Positions 13,299-59,314 of a stretch of DNA of 64,000 nucleotides are shown piece by piece. The notes under the pieces are model-generated. The model was not told where the DNA came from, did not search any database, and worked only from the letters and a program-made list of their open reading frames with translations. The stretch is from the IMG/VR virus record IMGVR_UViG_3300049846_002100, positions 24,942-88,941 of that record; one strand, given 5' to 3'. A program made the position numbers and the translations under genes. The DNA comes from a virus. How positions within the stretch are numbered: the stretch's first letter is position 1; each line of letters begins with the position of its first letter.

Positions 13299-13306
13299 GA
13301 AGGGCT

Positions 13307-17317: not shown

Positions 17318-17385
17318 CGTGGGTTCCTGCGGGTTAGGTAGGCGCGAAGCGCTCAGCCTGGCTGACTTATCAATGGAACTTCGCA

Positions 17386-40214: not shown

Positions 40215-43160
40215 TCACACCTTCTGGACGAACTTGAACGAGCCCTCGTTGCGGTTGGGCTCAGACGCGAACCGCGCGCGGATCCCATCATCCACGCCCT
40301 CGTCGTACCCCACCCATTCAAGAACCGCGCGGACCTCGTCCACCATGGTCTTAACGATGCGGGGCTTCTTCTCCAGCGTTTGGCCGAGGATGCCCTCATC
40401 GAGGCAAGGCATTCTCTCGTTGAAAGACTCGATCAGGGCTGCGTTGAGCGCTTGCTCGATCTCGCGCCCGACCATGTTGTTGGCCTTCTCCGCGAGGTCG
40501 GCCAAATTGTAGTCCTCCGGGCTCTGATTGGCTTTACGCAAGTGGATCTTGAGGATGTCGATCCGCTCTTGCGTGGAGGGGAGGTCGAAGAAGAACCGCT
40601 CATCCATACGGTTCACGAACTCGACCGGCAGAGTAGACAACGAGTTGGCAGTCATGACGAGGCAGACCTGCGCCTTCGTCTCCTGGATCCAGGTAGAGAG
40701 GATGCCGACGACGCGAGCAACAGTGCCCGCATCGCTCTGAGAGCTGGAGTGGGTGCCTGCGAAGCTCTTCTCGGCCTCGTCAACCCAGACGATACAGTTG
40801 TGTGTGACTAGACCATTGGCGATGAAGGAATGTGTGTCATCTCCTTCACATGCAAGGTCATACACATCTTGGTTACCCACCGATTCAACGCTGGTAACCT
40901 TGACCCAACGACACTCGGCATCGAGAAGGTGTTGGAGATCCGCCCCTGCATCTCCGAAGATACGAGCGTAATTCTTCAGGTGTCTCTCACTCACCGGCAC
41001 GTGCCCGTTTTCATAGGACCAAGTCACACCGCTTGAAACATCGATGTTCTCCCACATAACACCCGAAGCTTTACGAACGTCGTGCAGAAGACGACCACAT
41101 GCGAAACCCATACCTCGATCGAAGCCGATCTCGGAGGAGGTTACGTGTGTAGCTTTGACGTTCTTCTCAATCAAGAACTCCTTGAGAATCGCTGCCAGTG
41201 CAACGGCACGGGTACCGGTGACTTCCAAATTTGGCATGTCAAACTTTGAAGGTACAACTCCCAAAGACTGGATTAGCTGGCGTGCCAGAAGTTGACGAGC
41301 GTGCCATTGCATCGAATGCTTAACAGAGAGAGAAATCTTATCGGGTTGGATACACCCGTCTGCATCGATCCACCCAGCAACGAACGCCGCCCGTACCTGA
41401 GGTGGGGCGGATAGAATGCTCTCGCGTGCCGACCGTAGAAACTCAGCCGCAAGCTGATTCACGACAACGGTCGTCCAACATGGTTTGAAGTCTGGGTCTT
41501 TGCTCAAACCATGCAGGGGTGGCAGCTCCGTTTGATCATGAAGGTAACGTTTAGGTTCGATACCGAAACTCTCTGAGACAACGCGTTCGAAAGCCCCTAA
41601 CAGTACCGTAGAGGTGTTCGTGAACCCGATTCCATCGTTTGCCCCAATAAAACCATCGCCTTCAAGGGCTCCGAGGACCCAACCCAGATCAGTAGACCAT
41701 CTTACCGGTAATCGTGGTACGACGGCATCACGGAACCCACCGCCCCCACGGCGGAATTCAACTTCCCCGTTCCGGTCGTAAACACGCATCCCCTTCGGAT
41801 GGAACCGAACACAATCCTCGTTGCCTTCGTACTTGGCCGTAGGTACTGCCATCATATCGCCGGGTGACAGCTCATCCGTACGAACCCACTCGGGCATCCC
41901 GCCACGCATCACATAGTGGAGGTGGTTTGCCGTCGCATTCACATAAAAACCGTTGGCAGCTTCTACCCGAAATGCCTCTGCCTTTCGGCGCGTGACGGTA
42001 TGTACCCGTGTGGTCTCAACTCGAAGTGTTCGCTCATTCCAGCATTGGACATGCAGCTCCTCATTGGATCCAGAGACGCTATCTTCCCAGAGAGAAGCAA
42101 TGGGTCTGCATGTGCCGTCTGCGAGAGTGACCAGTGTTTCCCCGGTCACACACGGAGCGAGGGATTCGATGATCCGGAGAGCGCGATACGCGTTGCTCTC
42201 GGATTCGCCGACACGCCCGCCTTGCAGGCGACCAAGCTCCAACTGGACTACGGGAAGACCCCACAGAGACCCAAGGCACTTCGTCGCGAGGCTCTTGCCG
42301 CAGCCCCACACGCCGACGCAGAGGACACCTCGGGGAGGTTTGAGCCCGTAAAGCTTGCCTTCAGGCGTCCAACAGGCACGAGTCTTCTTCGCCCATGTCT
42401 TGAACCTGTGCGTACCGCCCAAGTCACCCATCGTGAACTTGGTCGTGTCCACGTACTGAAGCAGGTCAGTTTTGTGGATCTGACGCCGACGGAACTCCAG
42501 GATGTGGGCTGGATCGATCCGAGGGTTATCGGGGTCTTCTTCGCGAGTGCGAATCACCGATTGAGCGATGGCGCTGTGAATCTCGAACCGCGTGAGACCC
42601 CTGAAGAGATCGGAGATCCCGGGAGGCACGGGCATGGTCATCTTGCTTGCGGCCACGCGGATGATCTCTTCGATCTCCTTCTCGCCCGGGCCGGGATCGT
42701 GGACGACGCTGATGTACCGCTGAAGGTTGTGGGGGATGAATTTTTGGGACCCCACGAAGATCAACATCTTGATCGTGTGCACGTTGTTGTGCACCTGGTG
42801 AATGAAGTTGAGCACACGACGCTGCACGTGCTCATCCCGCAACCACCGCTCGGGGTCAGTGATGATGTAGAAGTTGACCTCCTCCTTTGGATCGGCCTTG
42901 TAGGCTTCAATCAGGAGATCGTGGATGTCCTTCCCGCTGTCCTTGTGTTGTTGCGACTTCCAATCGCCAATGTGTTCGGAGAGCGGTCGGATGCCGAACG
43001 CCGCGTTGAACACCCAGATGTTCTTCGCGCTCTTCTTCAGGCTGCTCGCGAGAGAGATGAGCGCTTGGTCTTCTTCGTCGGTGACGTAGTAGATGACGCG
43101 GGTGAGGGACCGGATGAGAAATAGGAGGTCGGACTTCTCGGATGCCTTGTCGGATGCCAT
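40215..43160 (-). CDS. Ycf46-like AAA+ ATPase interrupted by an intein
   Basis: 981 aa including a 452-aa intein; 529 aa after splicing. Start taken at ATG 43160, where a GGTGTAGA motif lies 9 nt upstream (the open frame reaches 43190). N-terminal non-ATPase domain (LLFLIRSLTRVIYYVTDEED, KMLIFVGSQKFIPHNLQRYI), then Walker A GVWGCGKS at 283-290, Walker B IVWVDEAEK directly after the intein, sensor-1 region VCLVMTANSL, Arg finger region NRMDERFFFDL and sensor 2. The order matches the Ycf46/Vps4-like AAA family. Encoded with DUF1257 and DUF2997 proteins, as in bacteria that keep this gene set. Function in phages unknown. Confidence 0.85.
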   Translation of the reverse strand: MASDKASEKSDLLFLIRSLTRVIYYVTDEEDQALISLASSLKKSAKNIWVFNAAFGIRPLSEHIGDWKSQQHKDSGKDIHDLLIEAYKADPKEEVNFYIITDPERWLRDEHVQRRVLNFIHQVHNNVHTIKMLIFVGSQKFIPHNLQRYISVVHDPGPGEKEIEEIIRVAASKMTMPVPPGISDLFRGLTRFEIHSAIAQSVIRTREEDPDNPRIDPAHILEFRRRQIHKTDLLQYVDTTKFTMGDLGGTHRFKTWAKKTRACWTPEGKLYGLKPPRGVLCVGVWGCGKSLATKCLGSLWGLPVVQLELGRLQGGRVGESESNAYRALRIIESLAPCVTGETLVTLADGTCRPIASLWEDSVSGSNEELHVQCWNERTLRVETTRVHTVTRRKAEAFRVEAANGFYVNATANHLHYVMRGGMPEWVRTDELSPGDMMAVPTAKYEGNEDCVRFHPKGMRVYDRNGEVEFRRGGGGFRDAVVPRLPVRWSTDLGWVLGALEGDGFIGANDGIGFTNTSTVLLGAFERVVSESFGIEPKRYLHDQTELPPLHGLSKDPDFKPCWTTVVVNQLAAEFLRSARESILSAPPQVRAAFVAGWIDADGCIQPDKISLSVKHSMQWHARQLLARQLIQSLGVVPSKFDMPNLEVTGTRAVALAAILKEFLIEKNVKATHVTSSEIGFDRGMGFACGRLLHDVRKASGVMWENIDVSSGVTWSYENGHVPVSERHLKNYARIFGDAGADLQHLLDAECRWVKVTSVESVGNQDVYDLACEGDDTHSFIANGLVTHNCIVWVDEAEKSFAGTHSSSQSDAGTVARVVGILSTWIQETKAQVCLVMTANSLSTLPVEFVNRMDERFFFDLPSTQERIDILKIHLRKANQSPEDYNLADLAEKANNMVGREIEQALNAALIESFNERMPCLDEGILGQTLEKKPRIVKTMVDEVRAVLEWVGYDEGVDDGIRARFASEPNRNEGSFKFVQKV
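40797..42152 (-). other. intein in the Ycf46-like AAA+ ATPase
   Basis: 452 aa, residues 337-788 of the precursor. Splice junctions are Pro-|Cys (CVTGETLVTLADGT) and VTHN|Cys (extein CIVWVDEAEK). Block A and B residues (VNATANHLHYV with His) and the C-terminal HN are present. LAGLIDADG-type homing endonuclease motifs: LGALEGDGFIG and VAGWIDADGCI. It interrupts the Walker B strand of the host protein. Confidence 0.9.
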
Positions 43161-43169
43161 CGAGAGGGC

Positions 43170-43177
43170 TCTACACC
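43170..43177 (-). promoter_or_regulatory. GGTGTAGA start-proximal motif, AAA+ gene
   Basis: Exact GGTGTAGA on the minus strand, 9 nt before ATG 43160, preceded by GCCC. Determines the start codon choice. Confidence 0.55.
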
Positions 43178-43213
43178 GGGCACTACGCACTCAACGCAAT
43201 GCCGGGGAAAGAG

Positions 43214-43537
43214 TCACCCGATCTGGTAGAGAAGCTCGACTTCTCCGTTCTGATTCACCTTGCGCGATTCGATCCGGCCACCCTGCTTCCGGATCTCGTT
43301 GCTCAGAAGCGCCTCAGCGTAGTGCATCTTGAGCTGGTTCACCTTGCCACCGGCATGGTAGTCGGTGTCCCCGTCGAAAGTCCCCGTCTTCGTGTTCAGA
43401 GTGCCCCGCGTGAGCGGGCCCGTCATGAACGTGAGGACCGCGTCCTTCTCGGTGAACTTCCAACCCGCGGCTTCGCAAGCCTGCTTTGCGACGGCGAGAT
43501 CGGTGATTTCGGTTTCAGTGGTGATTCGATGAGACAT
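43214..43537 (-). CDS. DUF1257 (Ycf35-like) protein
   Basis: 107 aa from ATG 43537 (MSHRITTETEITDLAVAKQA). The pattern MSH.TT..TEI.D...A..AC...GW, followed by a beta-rich middle (TLNTKTGTFDGDTDYHAGGK) and a late helix YAEALLSNEIRKQGGRIESR, matches DUF1257/Ycf35 proteins. In many bacteria the gene lies beside DUF2997 and a Ycf46-like AAA+ ATPase, as it does here. The function of this trio is not known in detail. Confidence 0.72.
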   Translation of the reverse strand: MSHRITTETEITDLAVAKQACEAAGWKFTEKDAVLTFMTGPLTRGTLNTKTGTFDGDTDYHAGGKVNQLKMHYAEALLSNEIRKQGGRIESRKVNQNGEVELLYQIG

Positions 43538-43568
43538 GAGTTGCTCCGTGATGGCGAGGAGTGGAAGG

Positions 43569-43739
43569 TCACTTGTCGACGGTACGGGTGTTCTCACACT
43601 CAGGGCCGATCTCATCGTCCGAGAGCTGCTTGCCCAGGCGTCGCGTCACTTGGTAGACCTTGCTGCACAGGTGCTCCTGGCGGTCCACGACTTGGTTGAC
43701 CACGGTGCCGTCTTTCTTGATCGTCGCTTTGATCTTCAT
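43569..43739 (-). CDS. DUF2997-type small protein
   Basis: 56 aa (MKIKATIKKDGTVVNQVVDR then EHLCSKVYQVTRRLG). AAGGAGT lies upstream of the ATG. A first beta hairpin, a Cys-containing helix and a late Cys in EIGPECENTRTV fit the DUF2997 pattern of short proteins coded before DUF1257. It is the first gene of the AAA+ operon and has a GGTGTATA motif 23 nt upstream. Confidence 0.65.
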   Translation of the reverse strand: MKIKATIKKDGTVVNQVVDRQEHLCSKVYQVTRRLGKQLSDDEIGPECENTRTVDK

Positions 43740-43762
43740 ACGGGACTCCTTCGAGTGCTCCC

Positions 43763-43770
43763 TATACACC
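43763..43770 (-). promoter_or_regulatory. GGTGTATA motif, DUF2997 operon
   Basis: GGTGTATAG on the minus strand, 23 nt before ATG 43739, with the ribosome site AAGGAGT between them. A partner GGTATAAG in the opposite direction sits 2 nt away (43773-43780), making an imperfect palindrome. Confidence 0.5.
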
Positions 43771-43797
43771 AAGGTATAAGCCCACCCTTGACTACCC

Positions 43798-44544: not shown

Positions 44545-44571
44545 GTCTCGATTTTAGCCTCTGAAAGACCC

Positions 44572-47500
44572 TCAGTCGATGAAGTAGCTGCCGTCCCCAA
44601 GCGTGTGTTCGAGGATGTACTCCTTGAACTTCTCCGGATTAATCCGAATGCCCATAGCCGGGTCAACGAGGATACTGCCGCTCGGGTCGACAAGACGAAG
44701 GACCGTGCCCCGATCAACGTCCCGAGCCTTCATACAGAGCACACTGATGATGTGCACGGTGTGTTTGCTCAGCTTGTTGATCGCGAACGTCGTGACCTTC
44801 CCGGCAGCGGGAGGGGAAGACGGGCGTGGGGCAGGGGTGTCGCTAATCTGAGGAGTGACGGGCGCCCGTGCCGTCTTTGAAGCTGCCGCCGCGGGCGTTG
44901 CTGCCTCAACCGGCACCGCTGCCGGAGCTTGGGACGAGGTGGTCGTGGGGGTAGGAACCGCCTCGTGCCCGTGCCTCTCCCAACCTGGCTTCACGTGACC
45001 CTCAAGCCACGGCGGAACCCGGTGATAGACCTTGTCGCCGACGCGGATCTCGTGGGGCTCCAGCTTCTCCCCCTCCTTGGGGGGCTGCTTCTTGCCCTCG
45101 GTCATCATGTCCCAGTTGTAGACGCCACCCCACGAGAGCCCTAGGAGAGGCTCCACGATGAGAGGCACCTGCCACCGAGGAGAAAAAGGGGGCCCCGGGA
45201 ACTTCCACGGCGAGGACATGATCTGGCAGATCAGCGGGAGAGCCTCCTCGATCCGGTCATTACGGATCTCGAACACGATTTCGTCGTGCACCGTGAGGAG
45301 CATGCGGACCGAATCATCACCGCCGTTCTTCAGCCACCCGCGCTTGTGCCACTCCTTGTGGCAGAGCACGAGCGCGATCTTCATGATGTCCGCGCCACTG
45401 TTTTTTGTGATCACGCCGTCCGCTTCGAAACGGTGGAGAGGATCCTGCACAGATAGTGTATACGTGACCTCTTCTTGGTCTTTCTCTACTTTGCCCATGA
45501 GCTTCTTGTGCCCATAGATGGGGCTCGGCAAAGTTACGCCGAGGATCGCACACAGGCGCTTGAGCGTGTAAACTGTGACTTTTCCGCCGGTCCTTAACCG
45601 CAAGTAGAGGTTGTAGCTGGACTCGTCCGGGAAGTCCGACCGCCGCCATTGTCCCGCCGCCAACAACTCGTTGACGAGAAATTGCGGAGCAAACATGTCG
45701 AGAAACTTCGGATGCCTTAGATCGGTGCGGCCCTCTACGTGGTGCTCGAACATACGACGATGAATGTCCAAACGGTAGCTTGTGCTGTCCTTTCCGGTCA
45801 CCTCGTCGTGGTACTGGTAGGGACCGCGAATGCAGGACTCCACACCCACCGAACGAAACAACAGCTTCAGGTCTTCAAGGAGAGGACGCTGGCATAGGTG
45901 GATGTTGTATGGGTTACCCTTCGCCGAGACCAACGGGGGCTTGTGGCCATCGGAGTCCATGACCCCACGGAGGAAACTCTTCCGGTTCACAAGTCTCTCG
46001 GAGAGGATGCGTCCCTTCAGACGCTTTGTGTGAGCCGTCGCCCTATCGAATCCTATCTCGGAGAGCCACCGGATTAAGTTCACACTCCATATGTCAAGGA
46101 CGACTCGCTGCGCCTCTTGGCCGCGAGGCGTGTGCTTCACAATCTGCCAACTGGGATTCAACCCAGCCTGAGTCCAGAACCGCGCGCACGCGTCAACGTC
46201 GGCTTGTTCGTGGACACCGAATATAAAACGGATACCCCCACGCGGGTCTATGCACCCGTCACCTACGTACCTCCCCATCCAGTACCAGAACTCCTCCTCC
46301 AATTGAGGACCGAACTGGAAGTAGTTGCTCGCATGCTTGTGATCATAAAAGGCTGGCAGCGGTTTCGTTTCGAATTCCAACGGCTCACACAAAGCTGTCG
46401 CGACCTGCATTCCGGGCTCTAGCTGGTCAAAGTCAACCCACTGCTGACCCTCATCCGTGACGATCATCAACTTGTGTCTTGTATCGCAAGCGATCGAGGT
46501 TCCATCAGACAACGTAACTTCACCGAGGCGGCACTGACCCATCGGGTGAGCAGTAGCCACTGCCCACTTGGATCCCGTCCAAGCCAGAAATGCCTTGTTC
46601 GAAGTAGCCAGATCCCCGATCGATAACCACCCATCCCCAGTTAGAACTTTACTTGCATATTGTAGGCACCCTTGGATTGGATAATTAGTGGAGTGCCGCT
46701 CACACGCCGCTTGGACGCCCTTTTCGGGATGGTCAATATCAGGGATGGCGATCCACCTACCAAAAGCGGTCCACACACCCTTGTGCTTGCGGACGGTCGC
46801 GTGCTGACCCTTGATCCACTTGGCGAAGGTCGGAACGGCCTTGTCGAACGCCTGCTTGCGGCGAGACGCTTCAACCTTGTCGCAACCCGTAGCGCGCATG
46901 ATCGCAGCCGGGCCGCCACCGTAGATGAGCGCGAAGTTGGCAATCTTGCCCATCTTGCGCTGCTCTTTCGTCGGCTTCTCGACGTTGAAGAATGCGCGCG
47001 CGGTGATGCTGTGGAGGTCCCCGTCGCCTTCGAGGAACTCCTTGACCCAGACCATCTCGCCAGAAACGTTCGCAGCGATTCGAAGCTCCTGCCCGGCGTA
47101 GTCACTCTTGACCAGAGTGTAGCCCTCGCGAGCGATGAACCCCTCGCGAAGAGCTGAGGTCGACGGGATACCGTGGATAGGCACCGCGGAGAAGCCTTGA
47201 TCTGCTTCGCCTTGAGGTGCCGAGAAGCGGCCGGTCGCAGCCCCGGTCTCTTTGAAGCCGAAACGCAGCTCTGAATTCTTGTCCGGGTTCGCGACGAGCT
47301 TCTCCAGGTAGGTCCCGATGACCTTGTCTTGCTCACGCCACTCGATGATCCATTTGAGGATGGCCGGCGCGTGCTCCTCTCCGATCTCCTGCACGAGCTG
47401 CTCGATCGAGGAGGCGTCTGTCTTGTACTGGCCTGACGCCTCGTTCTTCTCGGGCTTCGGCTTGATATCCAACCCGCGCTCGCCAAAGAGGAATTCGGAG

Positions 47501-48711
47501 AGGACTGTCGTCTGCCCGGGCTCGAATCCGTGGAAGCCTTTGCTCTCGGCCAGCTCGACGATCTGGGCGCGAATCTCTTCGCGCTTACGGAGGTGTACTT
47601 CGAGAAGCTGTCGGAACTTATCCCGATCGACGCGGACGCGGTTGCGCTCCATGACACGCACGGCCTGGACGCATTGCTTCTCCAGGCGATAGATGAAGCC
47701 TAGGTCCCGAGCGCGGCTTGGGTCCTTTACACGACCGACGACTTCGGGGTGATCACAAAGTAGCCGGGTGCATACTGCATCGGAGCAGGCGTACTTCACT
47801 ACGCCAGGTTCGTCGGGAGCTAGTGCGTCGAACTGAATCTTGCGCCCGTTCGGGAACAGCTCCTTGAGCTTGATCATCTCGTACGGGTTGCCGTCCGGAT
47901 CACGAAGCAGCTCGGGGGCCTTGTACTTGAGGCCAAGACCCTTGTCCTCCGACTTGAGAACGAAGCAGGCAAGCAAGCCGTCCTCGAACGAATCCGGATG
48001 CCACCAATCGATCCCCGTCACTGGGTAAAGAAACTCTTGGTCGAATTTCGCATTCCAGAAATCGATGATGACGCGGGGCTTTTGTTTGAACTCTCTGAAC
48101 GAGAGTATGTCGCTCTGTCCGTCGGCGGCGACAGGCTGCGAGGCCCAGCACAGACGCGAGATGGCAGCTTCCGCCTCGGCCACAGGGAGGTTGAGATCGG
48201 GTCCGCCATCGTTCGGGCGGTGGCGGACCGGCGCGTAGTAGCCGAACTTGGCGTTGCCGGGGGAGATACAGAAACCAACGATCTGGTGAACGGTTCGGAG
48301 CTTGCCGTTCTCATCACGCTCCGACCGGCTATCCAGACCCTGAGTCTCAAGGTCGAGAGAGCACCTGCCTGCCGCGATGCACTCGTCGATGAGTTTCTCA
48401 AGCTCATCGATGGAAGACACGAGCTTGAACGTGTGGTGCTTCATCCACGGCTTGGTGATGTCGGGCACCTCACGCTGCACCTGAATCCCGGTGCTGGCCA
48501 TGAACGTGTTCGGGTCGTCGCCACCATCGGGCGGCGGCGCCATGGTCGTCGAAGCCGCAACTTGCGGGACCGCTTGAAGGTCCGGAAGGTCGTCGGTCTC
48601 CGCCGGGGGCAGAGAAGGCGTTGCCGGGGCGGGTGCTCCCTCCGGCTTCTGCGCGGCTTCGGTTGCGTCGAGAAGGGCATCGAAGTCGAAGTCGTCGTTC
48701 GTGTCGCTCAC
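44572..48711 (-). CDS. DNA polymerase I-type (family A) with intein
   Basis: 1379 aa with a 423-aa intein. Start set at GTG 48711 (GGGAGG upstream), overlapping the previous stop; the open frame reaches 48819. Ala/Pro-rich N-terminal 100 residues; 3'-5' exonuclease with SLDLETQGLD and FWNAKFDQEF and YACSDAVCT; polymerase motif A SDYAGQELRIAANVSGE, motif B KMGKIANFALIYGGG, and motif C TVHDEIVFEI. Replicative enzyme of the phage. About 150 residues follow motif C: a linker of Pro/Ala and a small domain (INKLSKHTVHIISVLCMKAR) not found in PolA. A GGTGTATA motif lies 24 nt before the start. Confidence 0.92.
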   Translation of the reverse strand: MSDTNDDFDFDALLDATEAAQKPEGAPAPATPSLPPAETDDLPDLQAVPQVAASTTMAPPPDGGDDPNTFMASTGIQVQREVPDITKPWMKHHTFKLVSSIDELEKLIDECIAAGRCSLDLETQGLDSRSERDENGKLRTVHQIVGFCISPGNAKFGYYAPVRHRPNDGGPDLNLPVAEAEAAISRLCWASQPVAADGQSDILSFREFKQKPRVIIDFWNAKFDQEFLYPVTGIDWWHPDSFEDGLLACFVLKSEDKGLGLKYKAPELLRDPDGNPYEMIKLKELFPNGRKIQFDALAPDEPGVVKYACSDAVCTRLLCDHPEVVGRVKDPSRARDLGFIYRLEKQCVQAVRVMERNRVRVDRDKFRQLLEVHLRKREEIRAQIVELAESKGFHGFEPGQTTVLSEFLFGERGLDIKPKPEKNEASGQYKTDASSIEQLVQEIGEEHAPAILKWIIEWREQDKVIGTYLEKLVANPDKNSELRFGFKETGAATGRFSAPQGEADQGFSAVPIHGIPSTSALREGFIAREGYTLVKSDYAGQELRIAANVSGEMVWVKEFLEGDGDLHSITARAFFNVEKPTKEQRKMGKIANFALIYGGGPAAIMRATGCDKVEASRRKQAFDKAVPTFAKWIKGQHATVRKHKGVWTAFGRWIAIPDIDHPEKGVQAACERHSTNYPIQGCLQYASKVLTGDGWLSIGDLATSNKAFLAWTGSKWAVATAHPMGQCRLGEVTLSDGTSIACDTRHKLMIVTDEGQQWVDFDQLEPGMQVATALCEPLEFETKPLPAFYDHKHASNYFQFGPQLEEEFWYWMGRYVGDGCIDPRGGIRFIFGVHEQADVDACARFWTQAGLNPSWQIVKHTPRGQEAQRVVLDIWSVNLIRWLSEIGFDRATAHTKRLKGRILSERLVNRKSFLRGVMDSDGHKPPLVSAKGNPYNIHLCQRPLLEDLKLLFRSVGVESCIRGPYQYHDEVTGKDSTSYRLDIHRRMFEHHVEGRTDLRHPKFLDMFAPQFLVNELLAAGQWRRSDFPDESSYNLYLRLRTGGKVTVYTLKRLCAILGVTLPSPIYGHKKLMGKVEKDQEEVTYTLSVQDPLHRFEADGVITKNSGADIMKIALVLCHKEWHKRGWLKNGGDDSVRMLLTVHDEIVFEIRNDRIEEALPLICQIMSSPWKFPGPPFSPRWQVPLIVEPLLGLSWGGVYNWDMMTEGKKQPPKEGEKLEPHEIRVGDKVYHRVPPWLEGHVKPGWERHGHEAVPTPTTTSSQAPAAVPVEAATPAAAASKTARAPVTPQISDTPAPRPSSPPAAGKVTTFAINKLSKHTVHIISVLCMKARDVDRGTVLRLVDPSGSILVDPAMGIRINPEKFKEYILEHTLGDGSYFID
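45400..46668 (-). other. intein in PolA (motif C region)
   Basis: 423 aa, residues 682-1104. Inserted in NYPIQG|SGADIMKIA, the conserved PIQG(T/S)AAD motif. First residue Cys (CLQYASKVLTGDGW). The C-terminal junction is GVITKN|Ser: the usual penultimate His is Lys. LAGLIDADG-type motifs MGRYVGDGCID and RGVMDSDGHK are present. Splicing without the penultimate His occurs in some inteins but is often slower. Confidence 0.88.
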
Positions 48712-49136
48712 GGATCCTCCCGTACGAGGCAGACGTATACACCTTCGCGCCAAAGAGCGATGGCTTCTGAAACTAACCTGCGAGCTTCGCCTTCCAGCCC
48801 GTCCGGCTCGTAGCACCACGGCATCTTCTTCGCCGTCGGCTTGCAGGCAACCTTGTCAAACGAAGGGCAGTCCTTCCTAATCGCGCAGTCGCGAGAGATA
48901 ACAGGCAACTTCCTCAGGCAGCCCTCGGGTGGAGGGCCCAGCGCATCGACCAAGGGTTTGGTCCAGCCGTGTAGCGCGTGGTCCATCATGGTCTTGGACA
49001 CGCGAGTAGCGGCCTCAAGCGCCGGGACATCCTGCGCGGGCCGCCACGTTGCCTCCCACGTGCCCCCGACATCGTAGATCAGGAATAACTCGATTCGACC
49101 TAGCTCGGCCGTATCCAGCTTCAAACGTCTGGGCAT
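48708..49136 (-). CDS. unknown protein, 142 aa
   Basis: ATG 49136 (MPRRLKLDTAELGRIELF); the frame is open upstream but that part overlaps the primase gene. Contains CLRKLPVISRDCAIRKDCPS followed by VACKPTAKKMPWCYEPDGLE, a cysteine series that may bind zinc or an iron-sulfur cluster. Last codons overlap the PolA start (GTGA). A replication accessory role is suggested by its place between primase-type protein and polymerase. Confidence 0.6.
   Translation of the reverse strand: MPRRLKLDTAELGRIELFLIYDVGGTWEATWRPAQDVPALEAATRVSKTMMDHALHGWTKPLVDALGPPPEGCLRKLPVISRDCAIRKDCPSFDKVACKPTAKKMPWCYEPDGLEGEARRLVSEAIALWREGVYVCLVREDP
48736..48743 (-). promoter_or_regulatory. GGTGTATA motif before PolA
   Basis: GGTGTATACG on the minus strand, 24 nt before GTG 48711, with GGGAGG in between; lies inside the last codons of the preceding gene. 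Confidence 0.45.
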
Positions 49137-49780: not shown

Positions 49781-49784
49781 GACA

Positions 49785-52700
49785 TCAAACGTTCATCATC
49801 ATGCGGAGCGCTTCTTGATGGTCTTCCACCGCCATCCCACGTCCGCCCGCGGAGTTGATGGCGTTCATGTTGGAGATACGCCGAGACGTGAAGTTCACCG
49901 AGGCCACGAACGGCTCGAACAAGGGGTTGTCTCGGTTTTTCAGGTTGCAGAAAACCGTCGTCCCGTTCCGCCGGTGGTCATCGTTGAGATAGGTTGTCGT
50001 GATGATGTCCGCCGACTTCTCACAATTGTGAGAGAGAAGTCCGGCTGTCGCGTATTCGTGGTCACCCGACACTTCGAGGTCATACACTCGCGCCGTACCC
50101 CAATCCGCAAGAACCATAACACGTTGTGGTTTGGTTGTTTCATGAAGATAACGAAGCGTATCCAGATCGTTACTTTTGGACCTACGCAGTGTTTGCAACA
50201 TGGCAGCTACAGCCCCATCACTGACGAGGCTGTCTTTTCGTGTTGCTAGCTTGGCCAAAGCACTCAACACTTTTCGAGGAAATACATAAGTACCTTTGTA
50301 CTCGTTGTAGATAGCCGAGAACAACGATCCCACGGGCCAGTTAGTTCGATCACCAGCCTTTTCGGACGTATGTGCGGCTGCAATGGATGTCATCAACTTC
50401 GCTTGCTTCGCCTTTTCGGTAAAACCGATGAGGGCCGCGAAGCGCTTGCGGCTAGATCGCGATCGAACACGCAGGATCCATCGATCATACTCACGGCCGT
50501 TCAATGATGTAGTACCATAGGTGAGTGTTGTGTCGATACCGAGATCAGTCATTAGTAGCTGTGTTTGCCGTAGCGTTGATTCGTGAACGCCCTTGAGGCC
50601 CAACGCAAGAATTCCTTGGTTGTTAATCGAACCATCCGTGTCCCAAAGACCTCTTAGAAATGCTAGAACACAGTCACGAGGTGCTTCTAGGATGCACGGT
50701 GGTAAACCAGGCTGCCGGTTGACACCTAGTTGTTCAAACCAACGATGCAGAGCCTTGCTGCTTTTGCGCATATCGAAGCTACCCGATCGAGAAGGTGACT
50801 TCGACAAGGTGATGTCCTGTGAAAAACAGGTTACGAATGAAGATAGAAGACGGCCCATGACGGCCAACTCCTTACGATTCCCAGTGAATCCGATCGTGTC
50901 AGGCTCAAATGTGCCGTCACCAACGTGGGCCCCGAACAGGTAGGCAAGATCCGTCGTGAGATGTCCCGGCGAGGTTAGCGCAACACCCTTCATACCGGTA
51001 GGCTTCTCCCATTTGTGGAAGTCAAGTGTCGGCAACACAGGCGGCTTGTTCGGGAAGGGGCGCGTTCCGAAATCGCATAGCAAATAGTCTGAAAGGGTCA
51101 GGTCTTGAACGTGTTTCCAACTGACAACACCATCGTTGAGGATTCGAACGCGGTGGTTCCCAGTTACTTGGACGCGTACGCCCCGATCCGTCCAGAGATC
51201 GAAAACATGGCGAATACCATTATCGAACCGCGTGAGGACATCCTTCCATCCCGTGCGACTCCACACATGATCTCCAGGACCAACAGATTCAATTGTACGC
51301 AGCCCAGACGATGTCTTGACCAAGGTACCTTCGGCCAAGCACTCGTTCGCGTATGTGAGGGCGTTCATCTTGTAGCGACCCTCGTTCTTGTTCGCCTCTT
51401 CCTTACCCTGGCGGTTGATTTGAAAGAGCATGAGAACAGGAATACCCTCACCTTGGTTGAAGTGGAGGGCGAGCTTCTTCGCATCTCGGATGATCGAGTT
51501 CAGCTCGACGACGTAGTCCTTCGACCGCTTCTTCTTGCGGGCCTCGATGAGCTGACCGTGGTCGAGAACGATGAGGCCGATCTCCATCCGCTTGTGGAGA
51601 AGCTCGGCTTCTAAGCGAATGTCGTCGATCGTGATGTCACGATCGGGGGACCACACCTGGAACGCTCCGTAGTCGGGGTTCCTCTGGAAGTCCTTGATCA
51701 CGTCCTGAAGGAACACCTCCTCCTTCGGGTCGAGCTGCCCGTCACGGAACTTGCGGTAGTCGAGGCCAGCAGCATGTCCACCGTTCTCGTCGAGCCGCCA
51801 TCGGGAGTTTGCCGAATGCATCGTGTACGCGACGCGCCGGAGTTGCCGGTAAGGCATCTCGAAGCTGCCGTACATCACGTTCGAGCGGTACCTGGTAACG
51901 AGGTTGTAGCACCAGTTCATGGCGAACATGGTATTGTGCGTCACAATATCGTTCGCGACAAATGTGTGATGTCCAGGAACGGACAGATCGTAGGTCATCT
52001 CCTTCCCACGGAGCATGATACCCTCGACTTGTTCCCAGGAGAGGTCACCGTCGAGGACCTTTCGCACTTCGGAGTTCGGTAGAAACAAAGCTATGGTATC
52101 GGCTTGAGCTGAGGTTCTACACTTCGTCGTGTTCGCGTAGCGCCAGCGCTCCACACCATTCGCTCCCTGCCACCGGATCTTCATCCCGGAAGGAATGAAG
52201 TCAGTAGGGAACACGCGGTTATCGGTATAAGGTAGACGTGAGGCGAGCGTTGCGAACAAATCCTCCTTACCGATGACGTGGATTTTCTCGACGAACCTGC
52301 GCTTCGACGGATTTGTCACGACCCGAACGGTGTGGAATGTATAAGGCTTACCCTTGTACGTAGTGTCCACCCTCGTCACTGACGACTGAATGCCGAGACG
52401 CAAGAGGAGGGATTGGATATCCTTGCACAGGTCGCGGCTGGTAGATGTATAGGTGATGTCGTTTCTCTTGCAGAACGAGTCCCGTTCAACACGCTCGTGA
52501 TCTCCCGTGTGACAGGAACCGTCAGTTGACCAGAGAGCCCCCAGAAAAAGAGCGATCTGCTCGTCAGGAAGCCCAAAGAAGTCCCACGGCACGTGTTTGT
52601 CAGCCGCTAGACTTCCGAACAGCCCCGTATCTTCGAGCAGGACGCGTAACAGCGAGGTCATCTCGCTGTTACCGTTCCCGAAGCTACGGCTCACCCAAAC

Positions 52701-53873
52701 AAAGGGTGCCCGGTCTGATGGGAATACCTCACGGAACGTAGGTGTTTCGTAATCTGCCGCTCCTTCGACGAGTCCGAGGTCTCGAAGGCACTCCTTGAAG
52801 TCCTCGCGGATCAGATCGTTTGAAGCTGTGAACGTAAGATCGAGCCCGATCGACCCGTCCCCCAGCAGGTACCCAAGGACCTTGACCTCGGCGTCCGTAT
52901 AAAAACGTTCAGGGACACTTGCCTGCATGATCGCAGGAACGGCAACCCAATCCCCAGGGCGCAATTCGTCGAGCTGTCTCCAGCCCGCGGGCGTGAAGAA
53001 CTTGTGGTTCCCGGTAGCTCCAATGCTGCGCCCCGAGGTGAGAGTCAGATCGTAGACCTCTCGCACGCCGTTCTCGACGAGGTGTGACGTTTCCGCCCGG
53101 ACAAGCCGATGCGTCTCCCCCTCGCGATCGAGAGCTGTGACGATTGGAAGCTCTCCGCTCTCGTACAGCTCGTGGATCGTCCTTCGCCTGTTCGTCCGGT
53201 GATCGAAGATCGTGGCATCGCCGCTTAAGCACTTCAGCTCACCTGGGTAAGCGGCGTGGACCCAAAGCTCGCCCTTCTTGGCACCGTGGCAGACCTTGTC
53301 GATCTCCTGTAGGCCGGTGAACTTACCCCAGACCTTGTCCTTGTTGAGCTTGGCTTCTTCGTACTCGTTCCAGACGAGCTGCCCGTCATCACGGATGTCG
53401 CCGAACGTCTGAGCGTTGTAGTCCGTAAGGATCAGATCATTCGCTTTGGCAGCGAAGTGTTGGAGGCCATCGCGGATCCCTTGCTTCCGCTCCCCCTCGA
53501 TCTCCAACCCCTTGGTGATGATCTCCTGAGACTCTTTGAGGAGCGCCACCGCTCGGATGCGGTGCTGCTCGTCGAGCGCATTTTCCAAGAGGTGTTTGAA
53601 GTTGGAGCGGTAGAAGACAGGCACCGACTCCAGGTCTTTGATGCGCTCAACGACCTCGGTGTCCTTGAGGCGCTCGAAGTAATCTGCGATCGTCGCCGCC
53701 GCGGGCACTTCCAAGCGCTGTTGGAAGTACGTGACAACGAACTGAAAGAGCCGTTGGTCATCCCCCCGGTTCCACTCATACTTCGACGAGATGAGCCGCT
53801 GAAGGTTGAGGATCAGGTTCTCCTGCGAGACCGACGACTCGAAGTCGATGATATTGCGAAGAAGCTGCTTCAT
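49785..53873 (-). CDS. replicative DnaB-type helicase with two inteins
   Basis: 1362 aa; about 490 aa after removal of two inteins (433 and 439 aa). N-terminal domain (LQRLISSKYEWNRGDDQRLF) with a helical hairpin; RecA-type core with Walker A (HAAYPGELK|TMFAM), IGLIVLDHGQLIEARKKK (Walker B and following), VPVLMLFQINRQGKEEANKN (motif H3-like), and ANE|CEKSADIITTTYLND. All conserved helicase motifs flank the inteins. Moves along DNA and unwinds the fork. First ATG overlaps the stop of the presumed loader gene. Confidence 0.92.
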   Translation of the reverse strand: MKQLLRNIIDFESSVSQENLILNLQRLISSKYEWNRGDDQRLFQFVVTYFQQRLEVPAAATIADYFERLKDTEVVERIKDLESVPVFYRSNFKHLLENALDEQHRIRAVALLKESQEIITKGLEIEGERKQGIRDGLQHFAAKANDLILTDYNAQTFGDIRDDGQLVWNEYEEAKLNKDKVWGKFTGLQEIDKVCHGAKKGELWVHAAYPGELKCLSGDATIFDHRTNRRRTIHELYESGELPIVTALDREGETHRLVRAETSHLVENGVREVYDLTLTSGRSIGATGNHKFFTPAGWRQLDELRPGDWVAVPAIMQASVPERFYTDAEVKVLGYLLGDGSIGLDLTFTASNDLIREDFKECLRDLGLVEGAADYETPTFREVFPSDRAPFVWVSRSFGNGNSEMTSLLRVLLEDTGLFGSLAADKHVPWDFFGLPDEQIALFLGALWSTDGSCHTGDHERVERDSFCKRNDITYTSTSRDLCKDIQSLLLRLGIQSSVTRVDTTYKGKPYTFHTVRVVTNPSKRRFVEKIHVIGKEDLFATLASRLPYTDNRVFPTDFIPSGMKIRWQGANGVERWRYANTTKCRTSAQADTIALFLPNSEVRKVLDGDLSWEQVEGIMLRGKEMTYDLSVPGHHTFVANDIVTHNTMFAMNWCYNLVTRYRSNVMYGSFEMPYRQLRRVAYTMHSANSRWRLDENGGHAAGLDYRKFRDGQLDPKEEVFLQDVIKDFQRNPDYGAFQVWSPDRDITIDDIRLEAELLHKRMEIGLIVLDHGQLIEARKKKRSKDYVVELNSIIRDAKKLALHFNQGEGIPVLMLFQINRQGKEEANKNEGRYKMNALTYANECLAEGTLVKTSSGLRTIESVGPGDHVWSRTGWKDVLTRFDNGIRHVFDLWTDRGVRVQVTGNHRVRILNDGVVSWKHVQDLTLSDYLLCDFGTRPFPNKPPVLPTLDFHKWEKPTGMKGVALTSPGHLTTDLAYLFGAHVGDGTFEPDTIGFTGNRKELAVMGRLLSSFVTCFSQDITLSKSPSRSGSFDMRKSSKALHRWFEQLGVNRQPGLPPCILEAPRDCVLAFLRGLWDTDGSINNQGILALGLKGVHESTLRQTQLLMTDLGIDTTLTYGTTSLNGREYDRWILRVRSRSSRKRFAALIGFTEKAKQAKLMTSIAAAHTSEKAGDRTNWPVGSLFSAIYNEYKGTYVFPRKVLSALAKLATRKDSLVSDGAVAAMLQTLRRSKSNDLDTLRYLHETTKPQRVMVLADWGTARVYDLEVSGDHEYATAGLLSHNCEKSADIITTTYLNDDHRRNGTTVFCNLKNRDNPLFEPFVASVNFTSRRISNMNAINSAGGRGMAVEDHQEALRMMMNV
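50025..51341 (-). other. intein 2 in DnaB
   Basis: 439 aa, residues 845-1283. Junctions ANE|Cys and LLSHN|Cys. Typical start CLAEGTLVKTSSGLRTIES, block B NHRVRI, LAGLIDADG-type motifs FGAHVGDGTF and LRGLWDTDGSI, C-terminus GDHEYATAGLLSHN. Located in motif 4-type sequence near the DnaB-b insertion site known from other organisms. Confidence 0.92.
51933..53231 (-). other. intein 1 in DnaB (Walker A)
   Basis: 433 aa, residues 215-647. Junctions GELK|Cys and VTHN|Thr, exactly between Lys and Thr of the Walker A motif. Start CLSGDATIFDHRTNRR, homing motifs LGYLLGDGSIG and LGALWSTDGSC, C-terminus PGHHTFVANDIVTHN. Matches the DnaB-a type insertion site. Confidence 0.92.
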
Positions 53874-54748: not shown

Positions 54749-54773
54749 GGGCTTACCCTCCGTTACACCGAGA

Positions 54774-55085
54774 TCAGGAACGAGTATGGGATAGCGTGTT
54801 TTCAGCCTCGTCGCCGTCTGCGTCGACCCACTCGATCGCAGCCACCGCCAGGGCGGCCACGATCACCATCTCGTGCCGGAATCGCCTCGCCGTCCAAGGC
54901 CAGTGCACTGCCTGTCCCACGTGCTTCGTGATCAGAGCGATCCAGTCGTTCGGCCCGTTGTGTTTGTCGTGTTCTGGGTTGTCCCAAATGCGGTTCTGAC
55001 GCCGCCTCTCTTCGCGGATCTCGGCGAAGATGCCGTCTTGATTGCGCGACCCGCTCCGCTGGTTTCGCTCGTTGTGGGCGGTCAT
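54774..55085 (-). CDS. MazG-like small protein
   Basis: 103 aa. Pattern of the phage MazG-like/NTP-pyrophosphatase-type proteins: FAEIREERRRQNRIW, WIALITKHVGQAVHW, MVIVAALAVAAIEWVDADGD. The metal-binding EExxE/ExxD residues of active enzymes are only partly present (the first EExxE-type position reads KHVGQ), so enzymatic activity is uncertain. Its last codons overlap the start of the next gene upstream/downstream in the replication operon (ATGA at 55082). Confidence 0.6.
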   Translation of the reverse strand: MTAHNERNQRSGSRNQDGIFAEIREERRRQNRIWDNPEHDKHNGPNDWIALITKHVGQAVHWPWTARRFRHEMVIVAALAVAAIEWVDADGDEAENTLSHTRS

Positions 55086-58000
55086 TTGTTCTCCTTCATC
55101 ATACGGAGGAGTTCGCGCGTGGCGTTCCCTCCCGCCTCGTCCTTGTTGAATGACAGCGCCCCAACAGCGGCTTCTCCAAGCACCTTATCCACGAGATTCT
55201 TCTTGCTCCCGAGGAGCTGAAGCACGTGATCGTCGATGGTCTTGTCGCTCTTGTACTTGCCCTTGGGGCGCTTTGCGACGATGTGGTAAGCAACGACCGT
55301 GTCGTGGATCGAACCGATGCGGATCGGCCGACCAAGGAGCTGTACGTACGTGCCCCACGACCAGGGGGCATCGTAAAAGACGATGGCTGACGCTGCCTGA
55401 AGGTTGATCGCCTCGCTGCCTGCGTCGGTGATGAAAATGATCTTGGTGTCGGACTTCAAGTCCTGAAACGCCTGTTGGGCCTCACGACGTTTGACATCAT
55501 TCTCTTTGCCGGTGATGCGAACGCTCTTGACCCCCGCAGCGGTGAGCACCGATTGAAGGCGACCCACTAGCTTCTCGAACCGCGTGTACACGATGACCTT
55601 CTCGTCATCGAGTTCGCCCGTGATGAGGTCAACAAGGGCCTCTTCCTTCGCCCCCTTGTCCTTCACCTTCACGGACTCATCCTTGAAGAGCCCGACCGCG
55701 ATCTCCTGCCCCTCCTCAAATCGAAGGAGGTGGAGGGAATCGACGACCTGTTGGCAGTAGATGAGGGACGTGAGGGCGGCCGTCTCTTGGTACTCCTTGG
55801 TCTCCCCGTCGCCGAGTTCGAGAACACCCGAGAGGGCCTCGGCGTACTTGGTGTCCTCGCTCGGGGACATCTCGCAGACGATCTGCCGCGTGATCAACTT
55901 CGGCAGCTCACTCGAAACCATGTGCTTCTGCCGACCAAGGAAGAAGGGGTCGATGATCCTGCGGAAATGGTCGAGGTTACGGTAGCCAACCACTACGGGG
56001 ACTTTGCGTCCTCCCCCGACGGGCTGGAGTTTCACCACGCAGAACTCGTCCATGAACTTCGTCTTGGTGGCGAATATCGTCGGCTGAATGACCTTGTAGA
56101 TCGAGAACCCCTCCATGAGGTTGTTCTTCAGAAGCGTCGCGGTGAGCCCATAGCAACGCTTCGCTCGATCCGAGAGCTGGCGGCAGACCTGCCAGGTCTT
56201 CGTGCCCGTGTTCTTGAATGCGGTGCAATTGGAAACGAGTGTACCGTTGGCAAAGTAGTTGTGGTTACCATCAACCTCGATGTCATACACGAACCTCTTG
56301 TTTGTAGACCGCGGTAGCCAGGGTTCAACGGAGACTACTTGATCCTCAACGATCCCGCGAAGAGGTTCGGTTTTGAAACTTTTCACGCCCAGCACCGGAG
56401 TCCCCGCTGGCCATTTGTACTCAACGCCTGGCAAGGCCCCCGGCAAAAGAGCCAGGAACCGTTCTGCCGCCTCAGCCGGCAAGTAGATGACCGAGTAGTG
56501 CCCCTCTTTTCTCGACTTGGTTCGAAGTACACGTGCTTCTACGTCCCATCGCCAGCGCAACCAGCCTGCCAGAAGCTCGTTTTCTTCATGCGAAAACCCC
56601 TCGGTATGAAGGGTAATCGTTCGACGGACGGTCCCGTCGGTAAGTGTTTTCGTGTCGAGGCTCCCATCGTCGCTGTACCAGATGGCGAGACCAAGTGGAC
56701 CGATCTGATCAAGAAGAGAGACGCTCAACTTTCTCTTTACTCCGTCGTGTACACCCCATGACGCGAGACGGCTCGTTAGGGCTATGTTGCCGTTGAGTCT
56801 AAAGCGGCACATCCGTTGCTCACCGGACTGCAACTCTGTTTGGTAGAAGCTGATATCAGAAACCCCGAGGGGTTTTAGAAGGTCCCTCTTGAACTCAAGG
56901 TATGAGGCTTGTTTGATTGAATGCCCCATACAAATCCCCCAACAAACACGTTGCGGGTGTGAAAGACTTGCGTCGCCGAGGAGAGATCCAAGGATCACCT
57001 GAAGTTGATCATCAGAGGGTATGTCTTCAACGAACATGGCGGTCTTCTTTCCGGGCTTCAGAGTGTTCGCCCGGAAAGACTCCCCTCGTGTATTGTAGAA
57101 TACATGTGAAGGCGTAACGTTGACTACGCCAGCGAAACGAAAACCAATCTTCAGGAGGCTCTCACGCCGACTGTGGGTTAGAGGCTTGCGGAACCAATTG
57201 ACCACACGCTTTTCTTCAATAGAGCCCGTCTTCCAATTCATGGATAGGACACTCACGGGTAGCCTCTTGCTCACGATTCGCCCGATGAGTTCGGTGCTTC
57301 CGTCGGCTAATAGAATCGGGGTGTGGTAGTCAAAACACTCGTCGTACGTGACAACGAGGCGGGAGATGTTCGCGGTGATGCGATCGAGCAAACCCGGGCT
57401 GACTGGCTTCTTCGGGTCCGGCTGCCCGTTCGGCAGCAACGGACGCTCGCCGCCCACGTCCCAATCCCGCACGAGGATGGCGTAGTTCACGAGCAAGATG
57501 GCCTTGCGCGCGTTGGGTCCCGTCGGGGCCGCCGCCCATTTCTCGTACATCGCTTTGCGCTCCTCGGGCTTGCCCGAGACGACGTACGTGTCGATCCCAA
57601 CCGTGAACTTCTCAACCTCGCCGGCCCACTGGCGGAGCGCGCTCTTCGGAGTCACGACAATCGCCTTGTTGTCAGGCTCCTTCTCCCACTGGTAGCAGAG
57701 CGCCGAGAGCAGTTGCAAAGTGTTGTGATTTACGATCCCATTGCCAACGAAAGAGTGGTTTGGGTCATCGACCTCAATGTCCATCACCTCGGCCGACCCT
57801 GTCGTCACGGTCTTCACTGGATCGTAGAAGTAGCCGTGCCGAACAACTTCCTCTACGCACTTAAACTCAGCAGTTGTAACGAGCCCGTAGACAGAAGACA
57901 CTTCGAGAAGTTGCCTCAGAAATCGATACGTTGGATTGCGATGACCCAGGCATACATGGCTCAAAGTCGACTCGAAACTCCTGCCGAATTGCTTGAGTCC

Positions 58001-59314
58001 TGAACCTTTACGTAGTCCATTGGCCCCTTGCATCGAGACCATTTCTAGCAAACGACCCTTGAGACCGCGAACCAACTCGACAGCGTGTGGCACAACATCC
58101 TTGTTGGGATTGGAAGCTTCACTCAATGAGCCGGCCAGAAGTTGGCGTTTGCGCTCACTGACGAATCCGATGCTTTGCTGAAATAACCGCGCCTGATCGC
58201 CACAGAGGGTGAGGCGCCAGTATGTATGGTCGCACCCTTGAATGTGCTTAGGAGACACGCGAGCAACGAGGCCAAATCCTAGGAGGAGTAACTGAATGTC
58301 ATGAATCAAACGATTGGAAGACGAAGACAGTTCGATGTTACCGCAGTGAGGGTCCACAGACCCCTCACCTTCAAACACCCCCTGAAGGAACCCTTTGACT
58401 GACTCCCGTGTGGACTTGAAGATGACCCACGGAACTGTCTTCGTACGGGAAGTGCTAAAGTCTACCCCATGAAGTCGGAGAAATTCTCGAATTTGAACGC
58501 TGCTCACTCCAATGAGGGAGTCTTTTGACTTGGCGTTATCATTCCCCTCCCACCCAAATACAGAGCGGAACAGTCTCCGGATATCGGTATGGGAGTCAGG
58601 GTTCGTATCCACATACTGTGTTACATGGATGTGGTAACGGTCTCCAATCCAAGCCTCGGCGACAATATACCCCATCAAACGGGCAAGGTCTGGGTCCATA
58701 CGGCATGGAAGAGTGTATCTCTTCGCACTCGCGACTGATGCCACTTCCGTCGTAAGTTGGGGCTCGATGTTCGAAAAGCCTTGCGCCTTTCGGTCAATAC
58801 ACAAGAAGTCTCCCGGCTGTAGCTCTGGCAACGTGCGGAATACTTCAGCACCTTGCTTGGTCCGAACCAGCACGGGATGACTGTGGGAGCCTTCGATCGA
58901 AAAGCCGTGATGTGTCCTCACACGCAACGTAGGACGCACCCCATCCCAATAAAAACGCCGTACCGAGGCCCACCGTTCTCCCGTCCAGACTTCACATGGT
59001 TGTGTGGGCTCGTGGAACGTCTCGGGCGTGAGATCACCTTTAGGTCTTAGATCGCCAATGCATTGGTAGCCCTCACGTGTCATTAGCCGTGTCTCGGCCG
59101 TGACACACTTGCCGATCCCCGTGGCGTCCCCGAGGATCATCCGGTTCATGACGACGAGATGGTAGATGCCCTGAACCTGGTAGTACCGCAGCTTGAAAGG
59201 GACGGTCTTCCCGTCGAGGCCGACGATCTCCGTCCGAAGCATCGGCGTAGGACGCAGAGAGATGGTTGTCGACGCCCGCGCCTTCTTCAGCTTCTCGTAA
59301 GTGTCATCCGCCAT
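55082..59314 (-). CDS. DEAD/SNF2-type helicase with two inteins
   Basis: 1410 aa; about 578 aa after removal of two inteins (462 and 370 aa). Superfamily 2 motifs: Q-region FKLRYYQVQGIYHLVV, Walker A GDATGIGK|T, motif Ia AIVVTPKSALRQW, DE-box VVTYDE|CTAFKN, motif III YGLTATLLKN, motif IV-type KVIVYTRFEKLVGRLQSVLT, motif V FITDAGSEAINLQAAS and motif VI LLGRPIRIGSIHD. An SF2 motor of SNF2 type, probably a branch-migrating or remodelling helicase for replication, recombination or transcription. First gene of the replication operon, with a GGTGTAGA motif 9 nt before its ATG. Confidence 0.9.
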   Translation of the reverse strand: MADDTYEKLKKARASTTISLRPTPMLRTEIVGLDGKTVPFKLRYYQVQGIYHLVVMNRMILGDATGIGKCVTAETRLMTREGYQCIGDLRPKGDLTPETFHEPTQPCEVWTGERWASVRRFYWDGVRPTLRVRTHHGFSIEGSHSHPVLVRTKQGAEVFRTLPELQPGDFLCIDRKAQGFSNIEPQLTTEVASVASAKRYTLPCRMDPDLARLMGYIVAEAWIGDRYHIHVTQYVDTNPDSHTDIRRLFRSVFGWEGNDNAKSKDSLIGVSSVQIREFLRLHGVDFSTSRTKTVPWVIFKSTRESVKGFLQGVFEGEGSVDPHCGNIELSSSSNRLIHDIQLLLLGFGLVARVSPKHIQGCDHTYWRLTLCGDQARLFQQSIGFVSERKRQLLAGSLSEASNPNKDVVPHAVELVRGLKGRLLEMVSMQGANGLRKGSGLKQFGRSFESTLSHVCLGHRNPTYRFLRQLLEVSSVYGLVTTAEFKCVEEVVRHGYFYDPVKTVTTGSAEVMDIEVDDPNHSFVGNGIVNHNTLQLLSALCYQWEKEPDNKAIVVTPKSALRQWAGEVEKFTVGIDTYVVSGKPEERKAMYEKWAAAPTGPNARKAILLVNYAILVRDWDVGGERPLLPNGQPDPKKPVSPGLLDRITANISRLVVTYDECFDYHTPILLADGSTELIGRIVSKRLPVSVLSMNWKTGSIEEKRVVNWFRKPLTHSRRESLLKIGFRFAGVVNVTPSHVFYNTRGESFRANTLKPGKKTAMFVEDIPSDDQLQVILGSLLGDASLSHPQRVCWGICMGHSIKQASYLEFKRDLLKPLGVSDISFYQTELQSGEQRMCRFRLNGNIALTSRLASWGVHDGVKRKLSVSLLDQIGPLGLAIWYSDDGSLDTKTLTDGTVRRTITLHTEGFSHEENELLAGWLRWRWDVEARVLRTKSRKEGHYSVIYLPAEAAERFLALLPGALPGVEYKWPAGTPVLGVKSFKTEPLRGIVEDQVVSVEPWLPRSTNKRFVYDIEVDGNHNYFANGTLVSNCTAFKNTGTKTWQVCRQLSDRAKRCYGLTATLLKNNLMEGFSIYKVIQPTIFATKTKFMDEFCVVKLQPVGGGRKVPVVVGYRNLDHFRRIIDPFFLGRQKHMVSSELPKLITRQIVCEMSPSEDTKYAEALSGVLELGDGETKEYQETAALTSLIYCQQVVDSLHLLRFEEGQEIAVGLFKDESVKVKDKGAKEEALVDLITGELDDEKVIVYTRFEKLVGRLQSVLTAAGVKSVRITGKENDVKRREAQQAFQDLKSDTKIIFITDAGSEAINLQAASAIVFYDAPWSWGTYVQLLGRPIRIGSIHDTVVAYHIVAKRPKGKYKSDKTIDDHVLQLLGSKKNLVDKVLGEAAVGALSFNKDEAGGNATRELLRMMKENK
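56228..57337 (-). other. intein 2 in the SF2 helicase (DE box)
   Basis: 370 aa, residues 660-1029. Inserted after Asp-Glu of the DE(AH) box: TYDE|Cys, SN|CTAFKN. Start CFDYHTPILLADGSTE, homing motifs LGSLLGDASLS and IWYSDDGSLD (LAGLIDADG type), C-terminus GNHNYFANGTLVSN, where the penultimate residue is Ser instead of His. Confidence 0.9.
57722..59107 (-). other. intein 1 in the SF2 helicase (Walker A)
   Basis: 462 aa, residues 70-531. Inserted between Lys and Thr of Walker A: GIGK|Cys, VNHN|Thr. Start CVTAETRLMTREGYQ, block B with GSHSHPVLV, homing-type motifs GYIVAEAWIG and QGVFEGEGSVD, C-terminus DPNHSFVGNGIVNHN. Composition is AT-richer than the extein. Confidence 0.9.

Follow-up and report, generated by a model that had tools for sequence, protein, structure and literature searches.

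Four neighbouring minus-strand ORFs, at positions 40797-59107 of the 64,000-nucleotide stretch of viral DNA analysed here (the window), were found to hold six complete inteins, of which one lies in an AAA+ ATPase, one in a family-A DNA polymerase (PolA), two in a DnaB-like replicative helicase and two in an SF2 helicase. The six inserts are very probably full-length class-1 LAGLIDADG inteins, which would splice and cleave and would move by homing, with catalytic codons of replication enzymes as their sites. Such elements are of a known kind; their exceptional concentration here is real. A preceding sequence-only reading of the window had given the same count, coordinates, host genes, junctions and LAGLIDADG character, and on all these points it was right.

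The window corresponds to positions 24,942-88,941 of an 88,941-bp linear IMG/VR virus record (IMGVR_UViG_3300049846_002100), an 88.9 kb fragment whose kin are huge phages of 100-530 kb. The AAA+ ATPase gene (40215..43190, minus strand), which is Ycf46-like and has an extein of about 530 aa, matches Pfam AAA (E 5e-12) and PHROG 8638 (function unknown; E 2e-84), and uninterrupted homologues of it are present in relatives. The PolA gene (44572..48819, minus strand) matches PF00476 (E 6e-60), the DnaB-like gene (49785..53873, minus strand) matches PF03796 (E 7e-13) and DnaB structures in the PDB, and the SF2 helicase gene (55082..59314, minus strand), which is of the SNF2 type, matches PF00176 (E 1e-16) and PF00271 (E 9e-18). 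In the 25 kb of the record outside the window, family searches found no seventh intein, although an equally divergent one could be missed, since these searches also miss the C-terminus of the PolA intein.

Elsewhere in the window lie genes for a Bax inhibitor-1 family membrane protein (61550-62269, plus strand; PF01027 E 1e-41), here carried by a phage, an RlaP-like nucleotidyltransferase (24075-25400, plus), a deoxyribosyltransferase-NUDIX fusion (13292-14467, plus), a Zeta-toxin-like kinase (15500-17419, minus) and a ThyX-type thymidylate synthase (35958-37289, minus). The product of a further gene (26556-27425, plus) belongs to the 2H phosphoesterase / 2'-5' RNA ligase family, and its match to the anti-CBASS protein Acb1 is below threshold (26.0 bits, cut-off 27); this is possibly a counter-defence gene.

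All six inserts begin with Cys and end with Asn. The AAA+ intein (AAA-B, 40797..42152, minus strand, 452 aa, +1 residue Cys) interrupts the protein where the Walker B strand begins (LAP|CIVWVDEAE), with DE five residues further on, and matches PF14890 (E 2e-13) and LAGLIDADG_3 (E 3e-7). The PolA intein (PolA-Q, 45400..46668, minus strand, 423 aa, +1 Ser) lies in NYPIQG|SGAD of the polymerase domain, in the PIQG motif as had been proposed, and was recognised by a profile of its alleles and by its predicted fold. In DnaB, one intein (DnaB-H4, 50025..51341, minus strand, 439 aa, +1 Cys) occupies the H4 DNA-binding loop (YANE|CEKSAD) and matches PF14890 and LAGLIDADG_3 in two stretches, and the other (DnaB-P, 51933..53231, minus strand, 433 aa, +1 Thr) occupies the P-loop (PGELK|TMFA), with matches to intein_Nterm (E 6e-10) and intein_Cterm (E 3e-11). 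The SF2 helicase is interrupted in its DE box (TYDE|CTAFKN) by SF2-b (56228..57337, minus strand, 370 aa, +1 Cys), which matches PF03161 (E 8e-21), intein_Nterm and intein_Cterm, and in its Walker A motif (GIGK|TLQ) by SF2-a (57722..59107, minus strand, 462 aa, +1 Thr), which matches PF14890 and LAGLIDADG_3. The sequence-only reading had placed four inteins in Walker A or DE/Walker B motifs; this stood for SF2-a, SF2-b and DnaB-P, while the position of the AAA+ intein had to be moved to the beginning of the Walker B strand.

Excision in silico restored the conserved motifs at the same positions as in uninterrupted homologues, so that the junctions chosen earlier held. Matches to Intein_splicing, intein_Nterm, intein_Cterm and LAGLIDADG_2/_3 of Pfam and NCBIfam were obtained in the AAA, DnaB and SF2 proteins, with whole-protein E values of the splicing domain from 1e-12 to 1e-29, far beyond chance. 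Hint and/or LAGLIDADG profiles thus match five of the six inteins, and the PolA insert was recognised as a Hint protein from its predicted fold. Two LAGLIDADG-like motifs, each with an acidic residue (Glu in both motifs of SF2-a), are present in all six, as had been claimed. The endonuclease of SF2-b is of the I-SceI-type LAGLIDADG_2 kind, and its profile matches I-SceI and a related intron-encoded endonuclease. The penultimate residue is His in four inteins, Lys in PolA-Q (TKN) and Ser in SF2-b (VSN). A penultimate His is common in inteins but its conservation is not universal; the lack of the canonical residue in these two may make their splicing slower.

The PolA insert has no match to any Pfam or NCBIfam intein family. 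The profile of PolA-Q alleles, which occur at the identical site in five relatives, nevertheless matches intein structures in the PDB. An AlphaFold model built from a five-allele alignment (window and IMG/VR loci) has a pLDDT of 84.6 and a pTM of 0.86, and its best folds are intein homing endonucleases, namely the TliVMA intein (E 2e-18), PI-PfuI and PI-SceI. As modelled, PolA-Q has a predicted Hint domain with the splicing blocks. A limited and weak scan of cellular genome contigs with two degenerate patterns found no relative of PolA-Q, and no inteins at this site or at the second PolA site of the clade (PolA-B, see below) were found in annotated phages outside the clade.

The two DnaB sites can be related to published ones. 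Kelley et al. 2018 (PMC6195587) use the name site b for the P-loop and site a for the H4 loop. Because of this naming, the label of 'DnaB-b type site' that the earlier reading gave to the non-Walker intein was swapped. DnaB-P is an intein of published site b, with an insertion in the P-loop before Thr/Ser and a homologous intein, as the profile of its alleles matches the Synechocystis DnaB intein (E 1e-29). An alignment to DnaB structures puts DnaB-H4, the allele of which in L025 is 71% identical, in the H4 DNA-binding loop, at or next to published site a. DnaB-P resembles the bacterial P-loop inteins of Synechocystis DnaB and Mycobacterium DnaBi1 in its insertion in Walker A before Thr/Ser. 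In contrast to DnaBi1, which is a mini-intein with a class-3 mechanism (PMC6195587), it has Cys1 and an endonuclease, and the phage DnaB differs from the bacterial hosts in its variant P-loop. In an alignment covering the 53220-53270 region of the window, GELKT or GELKS replaces GxGKT in relatives of the clade both with and without the intein.

Queried against IMG/VR as a single protein, the unspliced DnaB gave no hits, and extein and alignment queries were needed. With the SF2 extein as query, nine IMG/VR contigs (45-529 kb, 55-68% identity) were detected; profiles built from the SF2 and DnaB exteins widened the relatives to about 70 records, and the GenBank sequence LR745208.1 (485 kb) belongs to the clade at a greater distance. 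The four genes have an unchanged order in the relatives compared in detail. By mapping profile-HMMs of the extein pieces onto each ORF, we located 35 further inteins in syntenic genes of the 70 related records, which are not all independent phages because some contigs are near-duplicates or fragments. These inteins fall at eight sites, comprising the six of the window, PolA-B (after the Lys of motif B) and SF2-c (motif VI). With the window included, there are nine inteins at SF2-a, five at SF2-b, two at SF2-c, seven at DnaB-P, five at DnaB-H4, four at PolA-B, six at PolA-Q and three at AAA-B. Each of the 41 inteins is most similar to one inserted at its own site. The SF2-a allele of LR745208.1 is 44% identical, and the AAA-B alleles are those of L053 (451 aa) and L055 (a mini-intein of 162 aa). 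Most relatives have uninterrupted genes, any given intein is absent from most of them, and empty alleles are known for all six sites of the window.

The window tops this survey with six of the eight sites filled, the next-highest records having four. The earlier statement that phage genomes with this density of inteins are rare agrees with maxima of three per genome in the literature searched, but LR745208.1 has eight intein C-terminal signals: the clade is itself rich in inteins, and the window is its extreme rather than a singleton. Outside the cluster, clade inteins were also seen in a UvrD helicase (L113), a RecD2 helicase (L116), clamp-loader ATPases (L115 and L121, the latter at GK|T) and proteins whose function is unassigned or uncertain (L117, L118, L120 and L122), that of L118 having an ATP-cone (ribonucleotide-reductase-like). 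An apparent split intein lies outside the window in LR745208.1 (L123:7705-10121) and in 35182_002586 (L124:8398-10763), where a gene ending in an N-intein block of about 35 aa (CLGGEETVELDVEGERMIVRLDDLWETLE) is followed by an ORF of 320-350 aa and then by a C-intein of about 130 aa with the C-extein. The middle ORF has a C-terminal motif that, by eye, is reminiscent of PDDEXK-type homing endonucleases, and the layout resembles a 'fractured gene' arrangement.

Near-isogenic pairs of occupied and empty alleles show precise in-frame insertions of 1.0-1.5 kb. The DnaB genes of 36760_000522 (with intein) and 37424_001177 (empty) are 91% identical in nucleotides with a precise insert of 1287 nt, and the insert aside, 11 of 492 amino acids differ (98% identical). 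Occupancy likewise differs at SF2-a and DnaB-H4 between 36760_000306 and 22744_000022, and at SF2-c between 33182_000489 and 12953_000012. Mini-inteins that lack the endonuclease and keep the splicing blocks were found in L055 (DnaB-P, 173 aa, and the AAA-B allele above), and acidic residues of the LAGLIDADG motifs are lost in L093, L078 and L079. The endonuclease motifs are retained in most alleles, and in one close pair of DnaB-P alleles strong purifying selection acts on the endonuclease part (dN/dS 0.04). Empty, near-isogenic, mini- and decayed alleles correspond to the stages through which a homing cycle is expected to pass, leaving aside the direction of individual events.

The same distribution could in principle have arisen from ancient inteins that the clade's common ancestor already carried and that were then inherited vertically and lost in most lineages. 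Such a history fits the PolA-Q intein tree, the topology of which agrees with the extein tree without conflict, and the DnaB-P inteins, the distances of which correlate with those of their exteins (r 0.97); for SF2-a, PolA-B and PolA-Q, however, the correlation of intein and extein distances is not significant. On a tree of concatenated exteins, the 40 occupied alleles need at least 39 state changes by parsimony, whereas a single gain per site would cost 121 losses in all, 9-22 per site. Parsimony is unable to separate gain from loss, but a single gain per site is unlikely. Moreover, the inteins of several pairs are more similar to each other than their exteins are, which suggests from the sequences that inteins may have passed between lineages. 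We regard ancient presence with widespread loss as improbable. Since the PolA-Q trees agree and the DnaB-P distances track the exteins, movement was mostly within the clade, or inheritance was partly vertical, and long-range transfer is not claimed. Horizontal transfer of PolA-Q, considered from an intein identity higher than the extein identity, was rejected, as the topologies agree and L093 forms a long branch with a decayed endonuclease.

It is also conceivable that the inteins have been domesticated as regulators: splicing at catalytic sites that is slow or conditional would delay or gate replication, and selection on the phage would keep them. Each insertion site would keep its enzyme inactive until splicing, conditional splicing is known for mycobacterial DnaB inteins (PMC6195587, PMC7360933), and the non-canonical penultimate Lys of PolA-Q and Ser of SF2-b are conserved in most alleles. 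We consider this quite unlikely, because occupancy is very sporadic, with most relatives lacking a given intein, most alleles keep their endonuclease motifs, and two phages with 98% identical DnaB proteins differ in the presence of the intein. As the source is a metagenomic contig, an assembly chimaera or in-frame insertions other than inteins might be suspected as well; this is extremely improbable, since insertions at identical codons occur in 19 other records, LR745208.1 of GenBank among them, and the splicing motifs and folds are complete.

Under the preferred reading, that of mobile inteins maintained by homing, each intein would be translated in frame with its enzyme, excise itself by means of Cys1, the last Asn and the Cys/Ser/Thr at +1, and rejoin the enzyme, as its motifs imply. 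Since inteins interrupt the enzymes until excised, the four replication proteins would work only after splicing. At the same codon, the LAGLIDADG endonuclease would cleave copies of the gene that lack the intein, and repair of the cut would copy the intein into the empty allele. Repeated gain and loss would leave allelic inteins, empty sites, mini-inteins and decayed endonucleases across the clade, of whose eight sites the window phage has accumulated six. Inteins would persist at conserved catalytic sites because only precise removal is tolerated; theory likewise holds that they favour and persist at conserved active-site codons (PMC2814812).

At DnaB-H4, SF2-b, SF2-c and PolA-B, the +1 residue is Cys, Ser or Thr in all 16 occupied alleles and Ala, Val, Leu, Ile or another non-nucleophile in most empty ones. 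The association of a +1 nucleophile with occupancy has Fisher p values of 4e-4 to 0.015 at SF2-b, SF2-c and PolA-B, and in independent pairs on the tree, wherever the nucleophile differs, it is always found with the intein and never the reverse, with too few pairs at any single site for significance. In close pairs the +1 codon switches with the intein, from GCG to TGC or from ATC to TGC. This fits co-conversion in the course of homing; it also fits loss of the intein through replacement by an intein-free allele. The need of splicing for a +1 nucleophile alone explains part of the association. An excess of nucleotide differences flanking the junctions, a signature of co-conversion, had the same direction in five pairs and was significant in none. 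We put forward tentatively, as possible rather than probable, that inteins invade catalytic codons of which the empty alleles carry a non-nucleophile (Ala, Val, Ile or Leu) at these four sites and co-convert the Cys/Ser/Thr +1 codon, so rewriting an active-site residue of the enzyme, and that intein-free Cys alleles are scars of past inteins.

The inserts share with known class-1 LAGLIDADG inteins (PF14890 with PF14528/PF03161; TliVMA, PI-SceI) a Hint domain, an inserted two-motif endonuclease, and Cys1, a last Asn and a +1 nucleophile, and the predicted fold of PolA-Q is like those of TliVMA and PI-SceI. They differ from these in an identity of 11-14% in the full-length fold matches and in the Lys (PolA-Q) and Ser (SF2-b) that stand for the penultimate His. 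Inteins distantly related to SF2-a interrupt the Walker A motif (GGGK|T) of a different helicase in Herelleviridae (Enterococcus phage ECP3 and related phages); the intein there is 26% identical to SF2-a over its full length, but no extein similarity is detectable between the ECP3-type helicase and the SF2 helicase of the window. SF2-b is 22% identical to an intein in the family-A polymerase of a T5-like phage (Escherichia phage SelmaRatti), the site of which is in the N-terminal exonuclease part (PYA|CKDTDA), in contrast to PIQG|S in the window PolA. Recurrent inteins are known from other phage groups, such as crAss-like phages and mycobacteriophages (PMC7886860, PMC5050341), in the latter of which they are common in active centres of nucleic-acid enzymes (PMC5050341). 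Zeta crAss-like phages are reported to have up to three inteins per genome, part of what is termed unprecedented (PMC7886860), and these stand beside many group I introns, as against six inteins in 18 kb of the window; three are reported for Pectobacterium phage CB7 (PMC7344957).

In a provisional comparison, six inteins in one 18 kb replication module are about double the maximum for a phage genome in the literature searched, and the clade contributes further candidates at PolA motif B and PIQG. The clade also supplies replicates of occupied, empty, mini- and decayed alleles across eight sites, near-isogenic pairs included, which opens the homing cycle to direct tests, along with what becomes of the +1 residue and how neighbouring inteins interfere with each other (PMC10643990). 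The cluster is an unusually clear natural record of the coming and going of selfish elements.
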